NCBI RefSeq assembly: GCF_008087625.1
Contig: NZ_CP042997.1
Location: 7,626,001-7,690,000, forward strand
Reading direction: 5' to 3'
DNA: 64,000 bases
Source: Aquisphaera giovannonii
Lineage (GTDB): Bacteria > Planctomycetota > Planctomycetia > Isosphaerales > Isosphaeraceae
Part shown: positions 4,331-47,863 of the stretch, in pieces
How the letters are laid out: each line of letters opens with the position of its first letter
Position numbering within the stretch: the first letter of the stretch is position 1
Position numbers and translations under genes: made by a program
The notes under the pieces: generated by a model
Database searches by the model: none
The model's input: only the letters and a program-made list of their open reading frames with translations
Told to the model about the DNA's origin: nothing

Positions 4331-5122
4331 GTGGAAGATCTGCGATTCGACCGGAGGATCGGCCTCCGAATGGGCCTGGCGACGGGCGTCGCGGCCGCCC
4401 TCTTCGTGGCGGCGATCGCGCCGGCGAGGGCCGACGACGAGGCGGCGCCTCCGGGATTCGTCTCGCTCTTCAACGGGAAGGACCTCGCCGGCTGGAAGGT
4501 CCCGGAGGGGGACAACGGGCACTGGAAGGTGGTCGACGGGGCGATCGACTACGACGCGATGAGCGAGGCGCCGGGAGACAAGAGCCTCTGGCTCGACCGC
4601 GAGTTCGTGGACTTCGAGCTCCGCCTGGACTGGCGGATCAAGGAGGCGCCCTACATCAATCGGGGTATCCCCTACATCCTCCCGGACGGGACCCACGCCA
4701 AGGACGTCCACGGCCGGGAGTTGAAGCTGGCGCTGCCGGATGCGGACTCGGGCGTCTACCTCCGGGGCAGCGGCAACCATCAGGTCAACATCTGGTGCTG
4801 GCCGATAGGCTCCGGCGAGATGTACGGCATCCGGACCAACCCGGCCACCCCGCCCGCACTCCGGGCGGCCGTCACGCCGAGGCACCAGGCGGACCGGCCG
4901 ATCGGCGAGTGGAACCGGTTCGAGATCCGCGTGAAGTGCAACACCGTGACGACCATCCTCAACGGCGTCCTCGTGGTCCCGACCGTCGCGATCCCTGACC
5001 TCCCGCCCCGCGGCCGGCTGGCACTCCAGCACCACGGGCTGAAGCGGAACGGCGAGTGGGCCGGCCCGCCCAGCCTCCTTCAGTACAAGAACATCTACAT
5101 CAAGATTCTGAATGAGAAATAG
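4331..5122 (+). CDS. DUF1080 protein (3-keto-disaccharide hydrolase domain)
   Basis: 263 residues from a GTG at 4331, which follows GAGAGGAG at good spacing. A signal peptide ends near residue 34 (PARA-DD). The DUF1080 fold begins with the signature LFNGKDLAGW at about 46-55 and continues with LWLDREFVDFELRLDWR, DSGVYLRG and a C-terminal ALQHHGLK...YKNIYIK segment, covering the complete concanavalin-like jelly roll. The family is now called 3-keto-disaccharide hydrolase after members that cleave 3-keto-glycosides; activity here is inferred from the fold. Export suggests periplasmic or surface carbohydrate processing. A second paralogue lies at 37336-37971. Confidence 0.85.
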   Translation: MEDLRFDRRIGLRMGLATGVAAALFVAAIAPARADDEAAPPGFVSLFNGKDLAGWKVPEGDNGHWKVVDGAIDYDAMSEAPGDKSLWLDREFVDFELRLDWRIKEAPYINRGIPYILPDGTHAKDVHGRELKLALPDADSGVYLRGSGNHQVNIWCWPIGSGEMYGIRTNPATPPALRAAVTPRHQADRPIGEWNRFEIRVKCNTVTTILNGVLVVPTVAIPDLPPRGRLALQHHGLKRNGEWAGPPSLLQYKNIYIKILNEK

Positions 5123-5246
5123 CGCCCGCCGGCGTCCCGGGGGCGGCGACGGCGTCTGCCCCCCCGCCCGGCCCGGCCGCGGCCTCGTGAATTCGCGACG
5201 ACGCGACTTGCGGCGGATAGCACGTGCGGAAGCACAGGAGCCCGAC

Positions 5247-6032
5247 ATGGCCGATATCCTGGAAGGAAAGGTCGCGGTGATCACCGGAGGGGCCACCGGG
5301 ATCGGCAAGGCGGTGGCCACGCGGCTGGCGGCCCGCGGCGCCAAGGTCGTGATCGCGGGCCGCGACCACATCCGCGGCAAGACGTCCGCCACCGACCTGG
5401 CGAAGCAGGGCTACGACGTCAAGTTCCTGCGCACGGACGTGAGGATCGAGAACGCCATCGCCACACTCTTCGAGGAGGCGATCGACCTCTACGGCGGCCT
5501 CGACCTGCTCTTCAACAATGCCGGCATCGAGGGCGTCCTCGGCCCCATGTCCGCGAGCGACGAGGAGATCGTCGACGACGTCCTCGCCGTGAACATCAAG
5601 GGGGTCTTCCTCTGCATGAAGGAGGTGCTGCCGCTGTTCTGCCGCCAGGGGGGCGGCATCATCGTCAACACGTCCTCGTTCGTCGGCACCGTGCTGCCGT
5701 TCCCGAACGCCGTCCTCCTGGGCGCGACCCAGGCCGGCGTGATCAGCATGACGCAGTCGGTCGCGGCCGGCTACGCGGGGGAGAACATCAAGGTCTATGC
5801 GGTCTGCCCCTGGCTCACGGACACGCCCATGATGGACCGCCTGGCGCACCATAAGGATGCGGTGAAGGACGAGCTGGCCATGATGAACCCGAGCGGCCGC
5901 GCCGCCCGGCCCGAGGACGTCGCCAACGTCGTCCTGGCCATGTTCTCCGGCGACCCGGGGTTCCAGTCGGGCGACGCCGTGCTGGTGGACCATGGCGGGG
6001 CCACGCAGAAGATCCGGCCGATGTCCGCCTGA
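5247..6032 (+). CDS. SDR-fold protein lacking the catalytic Tyr and Lys
   Basis: 261 residues, normal SDR length. The cofactor motif ITGGATGIG (residues 12-20) and the NNAG motif (90-93) are intact, and SS at 143-144 matches the catalytic serine region. The segment that should read Y-x-x-S-K reads L-G-A-T-Q (158-162), so the catalytic tyrosine is Leu and the lysine is Gln. The C-terminus GFQSGDAVLVDHGG resembles the usual SDR end. Nucleotide binding looks preserved, while ordinary dehydrogenase chemistry is unlikely. The start at 5247 sits 7 bases after an AGGAG. It converges on the phosphoesterase gene with only 21 bases between stops. It may be a binding or regulatory SDR, or a decaying gene. 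Confidence 0.85.
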   Translation: MADILEGKVAVITGGATGIGKAVATRLAARGAKVVIAGRDHIRGKTSATDLAKQGYDVKFLRTDVRIENAIATLFEEAIDLYGGLDLLFNNAGIEGVLGPMSASDEEIVDDVLAVNIKGVFLCMKEVLPLFCRQGGGIIVNTSSFVGTVLPFPNAVLLGATQAGVISMTQSVAAGYAGENIKVYAVCPWLTDTPMMDRLAHHKDAVKDELAMMNPSGRAARPEDVANVVLAMFSGDPGFQSGDAVLVDHGGATQKIRPMSA

Positions 6033-44002: not shown

Positions 44003-45631
44003 TCATCGGTCCCCATCGTCGACGTCCGCCGTCTCGGGATCTTCGCCGTACTCGCGTCCTTCCAGCCTCGCCCTGAGCCTGGCCGCGGCGAGCCGAGGGC
44101 GATCCGCGCGGACGACCGAGGCGCTGACGGCGATCCGCGTGGCCCCGCCCTCGATCACGCGATCCACGTTCTCCGGCGTGATGCCCCCGATGGCGAACCA
44201 GGGGAGCGACGTCGCCTCGGCCGCGGCCCGCACGTGGGCGAGGCCCGCCAGCTCCGGCTCGGCGAAGTCCTTCGTCGCGCTCGGGAAGACGGGCCCGACC
44301 CCCAGATATCCGGCCCCGGAGAGGATCGCCGCGTCGAGCTGCGGACGGTCGTGGGTGGAGACGCCGATGAGCATGTTCGGCCCCACGATGCGGCGGGCGT
44401 CGCGGACCGAGACGTCGTCCTGGCCCAGGTGGACGCCGTCCGCCGACGCCAGGCGGGCGAGGTCGGGCCGGTCGTTCAGGATGAACCGGGCCTTCGCCTG
44501 GGCGGTGAGGATGCGCACCTCCCTGGCCCGGCTGAGCAGCTCCCGGTCGGGCAGGCCCTTCTCCCGGAGCTGGATCACGTCCGCCCCCCCCGCGAGGGCC
44601 TCGCCGACGATCCAGGTCAGGTCGCCGAGCGTCCGCAGGCCGCCGACGAGGACCATCAGCCTCGCGTCGCCCAGGCCGCGGTAGGCCTGGATGGCCGAGA
44701 GCGTCAGCTTCTCCAGGGTATACACGTCGTATCGCAGGACTTCGAACCGGCCGGCGACCCAGACGTCGACGAGCTTGCCGTACTCCTCGAGCGTCCGGAG
44801 GGCCTCGGCGGCGCGCTTGAAGTTCGCCGTCAGCACGGCGCGCGGGTTCTCGCGAACGCCCTCCGAGTGGGTCATGATGTGCGTGCCGACGTCCCCGCGG
44901 GTATCTCGCGAGCCGATGAGTAGGTCCACGTCGAACCCCCGGAGTGCCTCGGCCAGCCGATGGCGGACCTCCTTGAGGCGGCGGGTGAGGCCCGGATCGT
45001 CGAGGACGAAACGCACGTAATCCTCGGCCACGCGCAGCCCCTCGCGCGCCCGGTTGGCGGATGCGTCGAGGATCCGGGCGATCTCGACCGACCGGACCGG
45101 ATCCGAGAGGTCGAGCGGGGGCATGCCCTCGAGGGGTGCGATCGGCTCGGCCGGCGGATCGAACGCATGCTCGAGGTGGTCGCGGAGCGGCGCGAGCTGG
45201 AGCTCGGGGCCGAGCCGGTCGGCGAGCTGCGTGGAGGGCGCCGAGAGCAGGCCGGCGAGGAGGTGCTCCGTACCGACGTCCGCGCCGCGGTCGCGCAAGC
45301 GGGCCCGCGAGGCGGCGTGGTCCAGGGCGGACTTCGAGTCGCTGGAGAGCGGCAACGGTGCGGGGAGGGACGCCGAATCAGGGGGCCCGGGCAGGGCGGC
45401 CCCCACCGCCGGTTCGTCCGATCCGCCGCCGGCCTGAAGCCCCAGGGACTTCAGGATCGCCGTCGGGTCCAGGCCGAACCTGGTTAGGAGCTCCGCGGCC
45501 AGGCTCTCCTCCTCATCGACGAGGCCGGCGAGCAGGTCGACCGGCTCCACGGCCGTGCCGTTCCTCTGCCTGGCCCGGGCCTGGGCGTGGGTGAGCACCC
45601 GCTGGGCCCCCGGTGTCATTGCCTCGTACAT
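44003..45631 (-). CDS. thiE: Thiamine phosphate synthase fused to a Clp N-terminal domain
   Basis: 542 residues from ATG 45631, more than twice a normal ThiE. Residues ~1-150 carry two Clp_N-type repeats (MTPGAQRVLTHAQARARQRN...VEPVDLLAGLV and ALDHAASRARLRD...GTEHLLAGLL), the double helical repeat that begins ClpA/ClpB/ClpC. Residues ~185-320 (RILDASANRAREGLRVAEDY) match the helical domain that precedes ThiE in cyanobacteria and planctomycetes. ThiE proper fills ~345-530: GADVIQLREKGL, FILNDRPDLA, DGVHLGQDD, YLGVGPVFPSATK and WFAIGGI. ThiE joins the pyrimidine and thiazole moieties of thiamine. No AAA+ module is present. The gene is divergent from the glutathione peroxidase. Confidence 0.92.
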   Translation of the reverse strand: MYEAMTPGAQRVLTHAQARARQRNGTAVEPVDLLAGLVDEEESLAAELLTRFGLDPTAILKSLGLQAGGGSDEPAVGAALPGPPDSASLPAPLPLSSDSKSALDHAASRARLRDRGADVGTEHLLAGLLSAPSTQLADRLGPELQLAPLRDHLEHAFDPPAEPIAPLEGMPPLDLSDPVRSVEIARILDASANRAREGLRVAEDYVRFVLDDPGLTRRLKEVRHRLAEALRGFDVDLLIGSRDTRGDVGTHIMTHSEGVRENPRAVLTANFKRAAEALRTLEEYGKLVDVWVAGRFEVLRYDVYTLEKLTLSAIQAYRGLGDARLMVLVGGLRTLGDLTWIVGEALAGGADVIQLREKGLPDRELLSRAREVRILTAQAKARFILNDRPDLARLASADGVHLGQDDVSVRDARRIVGPNMLIGVSTHDRPQLDAAILSGAGYLGVGPVFPSATKDFAEPELAGLAHVRAAAEATSLPWFAIGGITPENVDRVIEGGATRIAVSASVVRADRPRLAAARLRARLEGREYGEDPETADVDDGDR

Positions 45632-45690
45632 CGCGGCGTCTTCTCCTGCCGTCCGCCGGCGCGGCCGCCATCGATCCCGGCCGCGGAAAC

Positions 45691-45719
45691 TTGAATTTCC
45701 CTGAATCCCTTTGCATGAT
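45691..45719 (+). promoter_or_regulatory. Candidate promoter of the glutathione peroxidase gene
   Basis: TTGAAT (45691-45696), a 17-base spacer and CATGAT (45714-45719) lie about 135 bases before the GTG at 45856. The -10 box covers the ATGATG at 45715, which argues against that codon as the start of translation. Confidence 0.33.
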
Positions 45720-45855
45720 GAAAAAAGAGGTCGGGGAGGCACGCCGCCGCGAAGCGGTGCGATCTTCCGCGATCGATCTGCCCGCCACCCCTTGGCCCGA
45801 TGTCCCGACTTTCCCGCCCGGACCTTCTCTCACCCGCCACAGAGGAATCCTCAAC

Positions 45856-46452
45856 GTGCTCTATTCGATCGCCGCCCTGGTCGCGCCAGCCGCCGCGGCC
45901 GCCCTCTTCGCCGTGGCCTGGCCCGCCCCCTGTCTCGCACAGCAGACCTCGAAGGAGCCCGCCTCCGTCCTCGACTTCACCGTCAAGGACATCGAAGGCA
46001 ACGAGGTTCCCCTCTCCAAGTTCAAGGGCAAGGTCCTGCTGATCGTCAACACGGCCAGCCAGTGCGGCTACACGCCGCAATACAAGCAGCTCCAGGAGGT
46101 CTATCAGAAGTATAGGGACCAAGGATTCGAGATCCTGGCGTTCCCGGCGAACGAATTCGCCAACCAGGAGCCGGGGACCGACAAGGAGATCAAGCAGTTC
46201 TGCAGCGCGAACTACAAGGTGAGCTTCCCGCTGTTCTCGAAGATCGTGGTCAAGGGCGAAGGCATCCATCCCCTCTACGCCTTCCTGACGAGCCCGGCGA
46301 AGGATGCCAAGTACGCCGGCGAGATCCCCTGGAATTTTGCCAAGTTCCTGGTCGATCGCAAGGGTGAGGTGATCGGCCGCTTCGAGCCCAAGGCGAAGCC
46401 GGACTCCGCCGAGTTGACCTCGGCGATCGAGAAGGCGCTCTCCGAGAAGTAA
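45856..46452 (+). CDS. Exported glutathione peroxidase (thiol peroxidase fold)
   Basis: 198 residues from GTG 45856, preceded by AGAGGA and giving a signal peptide (LYSIAALVAPAAAAALFAVA, cleaved near CLAQ-Q). The thioredoxin-like peroxidase has the catalytic site VNTASQCGYTPQY with Cys70 in the place of selenocysteine, then EILAFPANEFANQEPG and the WNFAKFLVDRKG block with the conserved Trp-Asn. It should reduce peroxides using thioredoxin-like donors, in the periplasm because of the signal peptide. A longer frame upstream (from 45613) has no family support. A hairpin terminator lies 38 bases downstream. Confidence 0.88.
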   Translation: MLYSIAALVAPAAAAALFAVAWPAPCLAQQTSKEPASVLDFTVKDIEGNEVPLSKFKGKVLLIVNTASQCGYTPQYKQLQEVYQKYRDQGFEILAFPANEFANQEPGTDKEIKQFCSANYKVSFPLFSKIVVKGEGIHPLYAFLTSPAKDAKYAGEIPWNFAKFLVDRKGEVIGRFEPKAKPDSAELTSAIEKALSEK

Positions 46453-46743: not shown

Positions 46744-47730
46744 TCAGGCCTTCTTGACGCTCAGCGAGGCCGGCTTCGGGACCGGAGGGGCGGGCGACGG
46801 AGGAGCCGGGGGAGCCTCCTCGACGGCAGGGCTCGGCACGGAAGGCACCGGGGCCGCCGGGGTGACCGCGGGAGCGGCCGGTGCAACACCGGTCGCGGCG
46901 GCCGGAGCCGGGGCGGTCGGGACCGTCTTGGCAGGCGTGGCCGGAGCCCCCTGATACGACGGAGTCATCTTGGCCGGGGCGGCCGGCGACTGAGCCGCGG
47001 GATAGGACTTCGCCGGGGCGGCAGGAGCCTGAGCGGCCGGGGCCTGAGCCGCGGGGTAGGACTTGGCCGGGGCCGCCGGGGCCTGCGCGGCCGGCGCCTG
47101 AGCGGCGGGATAAGACTTCGCCGGGGCGGCGGGCGCCTGAGCGGCGGGGTAGGACTTCGCCGGGGCCGCCGGGGCCTGGGCGGCCGGATACGACTTGGCC
47201 GGAGCGGCCGGGGCCTGAGCCGCGGGGTAGGACTTGGCCGGGGCCGCCGGCGCCTGGGCGGCGGGATAGGACTTCGCCGGGGCGGCGGGCGCCTGGGCGG
47301 CCGGGTAGGACTTCGCCGGGGCCGCCGGAGCCTGAGCCGCGGGGTAGGACTTGGCCGGGGCCGCCGGCGCCTGGGCGGCTGGCGCCTGCGCGGCGGGATA
47401 AGACTTCGCCGGGGCGGCGGGCGCCTGAGCGGCCGGATACGACTTGGCCGGGGCCGCCGGGGCCTGGGCGGCCGGATACGACTTGGCCGGAGCGGCCGGG
47501 GCCTGAGCCGCGGGGTAGGACTTGGCCGGGGCGGCCGGAGCCTGGGCGGCTGGCGCCTGGGCGGCGGGATAAGACTTCGCCGGGGCGGCGGGCGCCTGCG
47601 CGGCCGGGTAGGACTTGGCCGGGGCCGCCGGCGCCTGGGCCGCGGGCAACTGCTTCGAGGGAGCTTGCGCGAATGCCGAGCCGGCGACCAGCGCCGCGGC
47701 AACCGCACCGAGAGCCCGAGAGGTCAACAT
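46744..47730 (-). CDS. Exported Pro/Ala tandem-repeat protein
   Basis: 328 residues from ATG 47730 with a signal peptide (LTSRALGAVAAALVAGSAFAQA). Residues ~30-250 are about fifteen near-perfect repeats of the 13-residue unit KSYPAAQAPAAPA, four of them lengthened by an inserted QAPAA. Each unit has one Lys and one Tyr at fixed places. The C-terminal ~70 residues are Pro/Ala/Val/Thr-rich without repeat, ending in SLSVKKA. Such a chain should be extended, cell-wall- or surface-associated, with regularly spaced Tyr and Lys that could be cross-linked. Function is unknown. A promoter candidate (47864-47892) and a clear terminator frame it as a single-gene transcript. Confidence 0.8.
   Translation of the reverse strand: MLTSRALGAVAAALVAGSAFAQAPSKQLPAAQAPAAPAKSYPAAQAPAAPAKSYPAAQAPAAQAPAAPAKSYPAAQAPAAPAKSYPAAQAPAAPAKSYPAAQAPAAPAKSYPAAQAPAAQAPAAPAKSYPAAQAPAAPAKSYPAAQAPAAPAKSYPAAQAPAAPAKSYPAAQAPAAPAKSYPAAQAPAAPAKSYPAAQAPAAPAKSYPAAQAPAAQAPAAPAKSYPAAQAPAAQAPAAPAKSYPAAQSPAAPAKMTPSYQGAPATPAKTVPTAPAPAAATGVAPAAPAVTPAAPVPSVPSPAVEEAPPAPPSPAPPVPKPASLSVKKA
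46975..47640 (-). repeat. Tandem 39-base coding repeat array
   Basis: About fifteen copies of a 39-base unit encoding KSYPAAQAPAAPA, with some 54-base units. Copies differ mainly by synonymous changes such as GCC/GCG and TAC/TAT. Boundaries are approximate. The array can change length by slippage or recombination. Confidence 0.85.
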
Positions 47731-47863
47731 GGAAGCGTTCTCCAAGGGTGCAACGTCAGCCAACCGGGGACACGACGCCGCCTCACAATGACGGCCTCGT
47801 GCGGCGTCATCGAAGGATGAATTTCGACGACAGCGAGGTTTAGGAGTTTTGCGGGTTTTCAGT

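Follow-up and report, generated by a model that had tools for sequence, protein, structure and literature searches.

A predicted ClpC-type N-terminal domain joined to the ThiD2-ThiE thiamine enzyme in Aquisphaera giovannonii and its relatives

Introduction

What is a domain of the Clp proteostasis machinery doing on an enzyme of vitamin B1 synthesis? The question is raised by an open reading frame of Aquisphaera giovannonii, located in a 64,000-nucleotide stretch of the genome (contig NZ_CP042997.1, positions 7,626,001 to 7,690,000), which is called the window below. The frame runs on the minus strand from an ATG at 45631 to a stop at 44003-44005 and encodes 542 residues. A sequence-only reading had proposed that two Clp_N repeats and a ThiE barrel share this single frame, and Pfam, NCBIfam and the predicted structure have since confirmed that arrangement. 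Its further suggestion, that the N-terminus might subject ThiE to Clp-adaptor control, has points both for and against it.

A proteostasis domain is thereby joined to vitamin B1 synthesis, and the joining was found in a large part of one bacterial class. Some relatives have the domain and others do not, and clpC adjoins the gene in some and not in others, which constitutes a natural experiment. Should the domain control the enzyme, a metabolic role would open for Clp N-domains and for the phosphorylation of arginine; should it not, the protein would be a clear example of a captured domain that has drifted into a different use.

Domain organization of the enzyme

The domains and their positions are given in Table 1. 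Profile searches with both Clp_N and TMP-TENI gave scores over the cut-off. The helical domain that had been described as ThiE-associated is indeed present between them, but its identity is corrected to ThiD2 (140.2 bits against a cut-off of 23.5). The ThiD2 family is strictly one of HMP-phosphate kinases. The NCBIfam ThiD2-ThiE model PRK02615 covers residues 181-524 with a score of 338.8, barely over its cut-off of 335. In 64 aligned proteins, R356, K358, N386, D387, S425 and K454 of ThiE are among the invariant columns, and these are presumably the known catalytic residues. No AAA+ ATPase domain was detected in the fusion protein, none of the four Pfam families listed for it (E up to 1) being an AAA family.

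Table 1. Features of the Clp_N-ThiD2-ThiE gene, in window coordinates
Feature	Position	Strand	Evidence
Whole frame, Clp_N-Clp_N-ThiD2-ThiE	44003..45631	-	ORF, Pfam/NCBIfam and model
Shine-Dalgarno-like AGGAG, 11 nt upstream of the ATG	45643..45647	-	By eye; chance not weighed
Clp_N repeat 1, residues 1-63, from the conserved start codon	45443..45631	-	Pfam Clp_N 16-63; model helices 7-62
Variable inter-repeat linker, residues 64-92	45356..45442	-	Low pLDDT, about 65-90
Clp_N repeat 2, residues 93-160, GTEH motif (E122)	45152..45355	-	Model helices 97-156; VIA Z 18.7 against ClpC N-domain over 1-162
Linker before ThiD2, residues 161-180	45092..45151	-	pLDDT <50 at 164-171
ThiD2 domain, residues 186-308	44708..45076	-	PF17792, E 5.9e-41
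ThiE (TMP-TENI) barrel, residues 337-505	44117..44623	-	PF02581, E 1.4e-54; TIGR00693 over cut-off; Foldseek to solved ThiE 3o63, E 1.7e-14

Because the classical ThiD family (PF08543) has only two matches in the A. giovannonii genome, both partial, the fusion protein is probably the main or only source of HMP-P kinase and ThiE activities in this organism. Rfam models, that of the TPP riboswitch for example, all stayed below their gathering scores throughout the 64-kb window. Elsewhere in the window, a 339-residue ORF at 46744-47763 on the minus strand consists mostly of PAKSYPAAQAP-type repeats, and a glutathione-peroxidase-like ORF (45613-46452, plus strand) lies near it; both were named by eye.

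The N-terminal domain

The Pfam Clp_N family (PF02861) matched the N-terminus with an E-value of 1.7e-10 and 41.3 bits, against a cut-off of 20.7, and the best stretch was residues 16-63. In the window protein the score is carried by repeat 1, and repeat 2 is weak alone (a single stretch at E<=0.01). When 115 of the 130 fusions found were given to Pfam one by one, 104 of the N-termini matched Clp_N individually at E<=0.01 and 11 had no match. Since so many homologues match separately, the Clp_N match is beyond chance.

An AlphaFold2 model of the whole protein, built on an alignment of 64 proteins, had a mean pLDDT of 89.5 and a pTM of 0.73. The matches listed for a Foldseek search with this whole model were chains of ThiE, TenI and THI6 together with a few Trimbody entries and no Clp chain, and for this reason a separate model of the N-terminus was built and searched. 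Residues 1-179, modelled with 115 N-termini, formed two four-helix repeats (pLDDT 89.3), and the best Foldseek E-value was 5.8e-8. By VIA, model residues 1-162 matched solved ClpC N-domains (4p15, 5gui, 2y1q and 8otk) at Z 18.7, with an rmsd of 2.8-3.4 over 131-139 aligned residues. The model also matched Arabidopsis ClpT2 (Z 18.0) and the C-terminal domain of mycobacterial ClpC2 (Z 15.9-16.8). The Clp chains found by phmmer were ClpC or ClpC2, save one weak ClpA sequence (E 0.24). The N-terminus is thus predicted to adopt the double four-helix fold of a ClpC-type N-domain, and the assignment of residues 1-150 to Clp_N, which a missing profile match or fold would have overturned, was upheld by both (41.3 bits; Z 18.7).

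Occurrence of the fusion

In total, 176 loci were read, 166 from the class of the window and 10 from other classes of Planctomycetota; the best matches were taken first and then loci spanning the families, which makes the sample non-random. The fusion was present in 131 of the 166 and in none of the 10. The figure of 131 comprises 130 proteins that an iterated profile, whose model includes the members themselves, detected at E<1e-5, and one further protein, that of genome G297. Some part of the protein was matched in 294 of 297 class genomes and in 270 of 294 genomes of a phylum sample, counts that include genomes with a weak match or a ThiE match only. A few of the counted matches (e.g. G416 and G517) may be ClpC instead of a thiamine gene.

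A survey of the window's own family (f1) found the fusion in 34 of 35 loci, the 35th being truncated by a contig end. It was also present in 43/49 loci of family f2, 31/32 of f94, 3/7 of f4, 5/5 of f97, 4/4 of f103, 3/3 of f95 and 2/2 of f98, and in the single locus read from each of f96, f102, f105, f107, f108 and f109. Among the class loci read, it was absent from all those of f3 (0/10), f100 (0/6) and f104 (0/3) and from the single loci of f99, f101, f106 and f110. The enzyme stands without a Clp_N extension in 34 class loci, plus the one truncated by a contig end. Among the best 80 genome loci kept, the fusion occurred in 14 of 34 from Planctomycetota and in none of 46 others, two of which are of unassigned phylum, some loci being truncated by contig ends. 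The fusion is carried, among others, by Singulisphaera acidiphila DSM 18658, Planctomycetes bacterium Pan216 and metagenome-assembled genomes labelled Isosphaeraceae, Gemmatales, Gemmataceae, Planctomycetaceae and Pirellulales.

Three loci have unusual forms. In G297 (L180, G297:C155:34860-41341; 4527-5624, plus strand) Clp_N is joined straight to ThiE, without ThiD2, and the gene stands head-to-head with clpC. Two loci counted as non-fused (G451:C197:21475-22836 and G547:C67:46752-47804) are possibly decayed fusions, in which the alignment upstream of ThiD2 crosses a stop.

Linkage of clpC and thiD2E

A clpC gene lies head-to-head upstream of thiD2E (divergent, <3.5 kb) in at least 59 of 155 class genomes, some with a fused and some with a non-fused enzyme; the number is a lower bound, as 69 of the 96 non-adjacent genomes have clpC and thiD2E on different draft contigs. 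Nineteen of the positives came from reading the flanks and 40 from clpC searches of the genomes. The 155 genomes leave 11 of the 166 class loci uncounted (8 of f1, 2 of f94 and 1 of f97); these were outside the clpC search, save G339, which had no match, and the short flanks of all 11 are without clpC. The divergent gene was found in 35 of 121 genomes with the fusion and 24 of 34 without it. By family, it was present in 27/49 of f2, 7/10 of f3 and 6/6 of f100, and it was not seen in f1 (0/27), f94 (0/30), f95 (0/3) or f97 (0/4). The remark in the sequence-only reading that no AAA+ gene is adjacent therefore holds for the window, with A. giovannonii clpC 5.5 Mb from the fusion gene, but not for the many relatives in which clpC adjoins.

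The neighbouring gene is judged to be of ClpC type because its product is 76-92% identical to A. giovannonii ClpC, whose middle region has a UVR motif; the ClpC-type equivalogs of NCBIfam all scored below their cut-offs. In 40 genomes from other classes, 39 of them with a ClpC-like match, comparison of the listed places revealed no divergent pair within 3 kb. G117 and G148 have a divergent ClpB-like match at about 5 kb, and in G185 clpC occurs on the same strand at a distance of about 8 kb. Since the divergent pair occurs in the class and was not seen in these 40 genomes, it seems to be old within the class. A locus in a record labelled as a Candidatus Kuenenia stuttgartiensis metagenome-assembled genome (L314) has thiD2E with a divergent clpC and without a Clp_N extension; the pair may predate the class, or the record may come from a mixed bin, and the locus was excluded.

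An apparent trade-off between clpC adjacency and fusion (86 of 96 unlinked genomes fused, against 35 of 59 linked ones) was rejected, as it vanishes in independent tree pairs (median p = 1; starred branches gave 5 or 7 pairs, and hence little power). In two genomes whose clpC is away from thiD2E, mcsB is a close neighbour of clpC in the same orientation (G398:C67:11983-13595 and G333:C84:388320-391909).

Origin of the N-domain

The 46 fusion N-domains sampled from 111 form one clade in a quick tree, with a modest, unstarred SH-aLRT support of 86. In a tree of the ThiD2-ThiE core, which left out G440 (contig end) and G297 and G472 (both ThiE without ThiD2), non-fused enzymes are scattered among fused ones and the fusion occurs in most clades. 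This tree is poorly resolved, requires 16-17 changes of state and cannot tell gain from loss. An early single gain followed by repeated loss, with the enzyme kept, appears likeliest. Repeated gain of the N-domain is the alternative, and it draws on the same two trees, as the support for the clade is unstarred and the many changes fall in a poorly resolved core.

By profile the domain looks ClpB-like. The ClpC profile outscores the ClpB profile in only 8 of 111 fusion N-domains, ClpC being so conserved that its profile is narrow, and the diagnostic columns are mixed (summed match of 5.3 for ClpC and 7.3 for ClpB). The fusion start codon falls at the same column as the ClpC start, and position 11 is basic in the fusions (R 96%) as in ClpC (K), whereas ClpB has E in 85%; both features point to ClpC. 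R11 was considered as a fusion-specific residue and ruled out, since ClpC has K there. By comparison, E42 (90% of fusions; S in ClpC; E 50% in ClpB) and R44 (75% of fusions; L in the window protein; V in ClpC) are conserved in the fusions and not in ClpC.

The fusion domain may have come from a copy of the 5' end of clpC at the head-to-head locus. Such a copy would be the simplest origin, and the divergent pair, which seems old in the class, is a plausible birthplace of the fusion. Copies of this kind do arise at the locus, as indicated by a 297-residue ORF in G257 (L240, G257:C40; 1116-2006, minus strand) with three Clp_N matches, which lies between clpC and the fusion in the orientation of clpC.

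Clp_N also occurs in other settings. Several planctomycetes have free-standing Clp_N proteins (L233-L239 and L241-L246) in which no AAA+ part and some membrane-like tails were noted by eye; Pfam scans of four (L233, L236, L239 and L246) gave six Clp_N matches in one protein and a UVR motif in one. A. giovannonii itself has a further Clp_N-bearing AAA+ protein with a 918-residue frame, possibly of TssH/ClpV type by eye (L198, G000:C1:3158500-3165500).

Selection, phosphoarginine pockets and function

Against a background of 1% ATG among the codons there, 110 of 130 fusions have an ATG no more than 4 residues from a shared profile column; the choice was made among nearby starts, which favours agreement. 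Median dN/dS was 0.40 for the N-domain (252 pairs), 0.53 for the linkers (242), 0.14 for ThiD2 (251) and 0.22 for ThiE (256), from simple Nei-Gojobori counts on overlapping, non-independent pairs of related proteins. The N-domain is thus under purifying selection, with a constraint below that of the enzyme domains. Conservation of the start codon and this selection together suggest that the N-terminus is translated. For comparison, the leading ClpC N-domain match in each class genome is 85-100% identical to that of A. giovannonii ClpC (86-100% and 85-93% in two sets).

According to one study, two pockets of the ClpC N-domain, containing E32 and E106, bind phosphoarginine (pArg) and join in the resting state, and T7 and K85 are also named (PMC12583610). 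The same study places the action of pArg and partners at the N-domain and includes a mutant of R9 of Staphylococcus aureus ClpC in a primer list (PMC12583610). These five positions were mapped by the present authors onto 111 fusion rows. The pArg2-site glutamate (E32) is lost: V31 replaces it in the window protein, E remains in about 4% of fusions and no residue exceeds 15%. The pArg1-site glutamate (E106) is kept as E122 (E 77%, D 16%). The T7 site has T in 77% and S in 23%, the R9 site G in 59% and A in 35%, and the K85 site R in 43% and K in 7%. By this mapping, the canonical ClpC surface is only partly kept. E122 may be structural and need not signify pArg binding, because its column is acidic in ClpB too. 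The McsB arginine kinase was found in all 148 class genomes searched (145 over cut-off; name checked on one protein). The phosphoarginine system is thus widely available, and its presence alone does not account for the distribution of the fusion.

The explanation proposed here, which is given about an even chance of being right, is that of a three-part enzyme that gained a clpC-derived double Clp_N domain early and in frame and now uses it as a putative accessory module for interaction or stability. Early in the class, a duplicated 5' end of the clpC gene standing head-to-head with thiD2E would have been joined in frame to the bifunctional ThiD2-ThiE enzyme. The joined N-domain would then have diverged from ClpC, and it would now serve the thiamine enzyme as an accessory protein-interaction or stability module rather than as a standard ClpC docking domain. 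Its contacts might be intramolecular, might link one copy to another, or might involve some partner distinct from the canonical phosphoarginine ligand. This accessory role is considered the most likely, ahead of two rivals of similar weight to each other.

The first rival, a distinctly less probable one, places ThiD2-ThiE under ClpC/ClpP-McsB control: the N-domain would bind pArg proteins, McsB or ClpC adaptors, or would compete with the N-domain of ClpC, and either thiamine synthesis or ClpC activity would shift with protein stress. The divergent clpC neighbour in 59 of 155 class genomes, McsB in every class genome searched (148/148), and the retention of E122 and of T or S at the T7 site are in its favour, as is the placing of pArg and partners at the ClpC N-domain (PMC12583610). 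In mycobacteria, ClpC2, a partial homologue of ClpC1, is reported to be a sponge and sensor (PMC10030653). Against control by Clp or McsB stand the loss of the pArg2-site glutamate, the replacement of R9 by G or A (94%) and the presence of K or R at the K85 site in only about half of the fusions. The N-domain also evolves faster than the enzyme (dN/dS about 0.4), whereas the leading ClpC N-domain match of each class genome is 85-100% identical to that of A. giovannonii. Even the retained E122 is ambiguous, the column being acidic in ClpB also, in which one of the pArg sites is described as partially conserved (PMC10149685). Furthermore, enzymes without the N-domain are scattered through the class tree, and the fusion does not follow clpC adjacency once relatedness is considered, with few usable pairs.

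Of comparable, tentative standing is the second rival, a near-neutral passenger: an accidentally joined domain that folds harmlessly and is kept since misfolding variants are purged. It agrees with the weakest constraint among the folded parts (dN/dS 0.40), with the absence of the N-domain in 34 class loci in which the enzyme stays, and with the 11 of 115 N-termini without a Clp_N match by sequence. A mere passenger is harder to reconcile with its retention in 34 of 35 f1 loci (the 35th at a contig end) and 31 of 32 f94 loci, with its retention in G297 despite the missing ThiD2, or with the near invariance of R11 and E42.

A bolder and somewhat more doubtful idea is that the enzyme took over the sensing nose of its neighbour ClpC. 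One kept pArg-type pocket would tie B1 synthesis to ClpC-McsB proteostasis, or the enzyme would buffer ClpC through competition for ligands. If true, regulation of a biosynthetic enzyme in cis by a Clp N-domain would, to our knowledge, be without precedent. Finally, it is very improbable that the N-terminal part is not made at all, with translation starting near ThiD2 and the upstream frame open through high G+C. In the stretch from 25 codons upstream to 3 codons downstream of the ThiD2 start, 37 of 130 fusions have an in-frame ATG and 94 of 130 some ATG, GTG or TTG. Against this reading, 93 of the 130 have no ATG in that stretch, a start codon is conserved at the first Clp_N column, dN/dS is below 1 and the fold profile is kept across families.

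Comparison with known systems

No open-access paper was found that joins Clp_N with thiamine phosphate synthase or links thiamine phosphate synthase to degradation by Clp protease, in a search that left subscription literature mostly outside. For Clp_N fusions in Planctomycetes, a paper on vWA-MoxR systems was the sole mention of Clp_N among the open-access matches listed. Both halves of the protein belong to known families; their joining, its class-wide spread and the clpC neighbourhood were not found in open-access print.

The enzyme half resembles the PRK02615 ThiD2-ThiE enzymes of cyanobacteria and many planctomycetes, which have the same two domains in the same order. Cyanobacterial loci are 33-43% identical to the window protein over residues about 156-533, and all 26 among the matches listed, a few of them truncated by contig ends, are without a Clp_N extension. 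The other half resembles the ClpC N-domain (e.g. 5hbn and 2y1q) in its predicted double Clp_N fold (Z 18.3-18.7), its start column and the GTEH of repeat 2. Identity to the solved ClpC N-domains is about 19-28%, and, unlike ClpC, the fusion protein has no AAA+ domains and lacks the pArg2 glutamate in repeat 1.

Mycobacterial ClpC2 and plant ClpT1/ClpT2 likewise hold a Clp N-domain apart from an unfoldase and match the predicted structure (Z 15.9-18.0); the titles of their structure entries and the ClpC2 abstract make no mention of fusion to a biosynthetic enzyme. Similarly, the vWA-MoxR conflict systems are described as having ClpN repeats in a non-Clp protein, as does the fusion (PMC7159879). 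The context given there is one of conflict (PMC7159879), whereas that of the fusion is metabolism.
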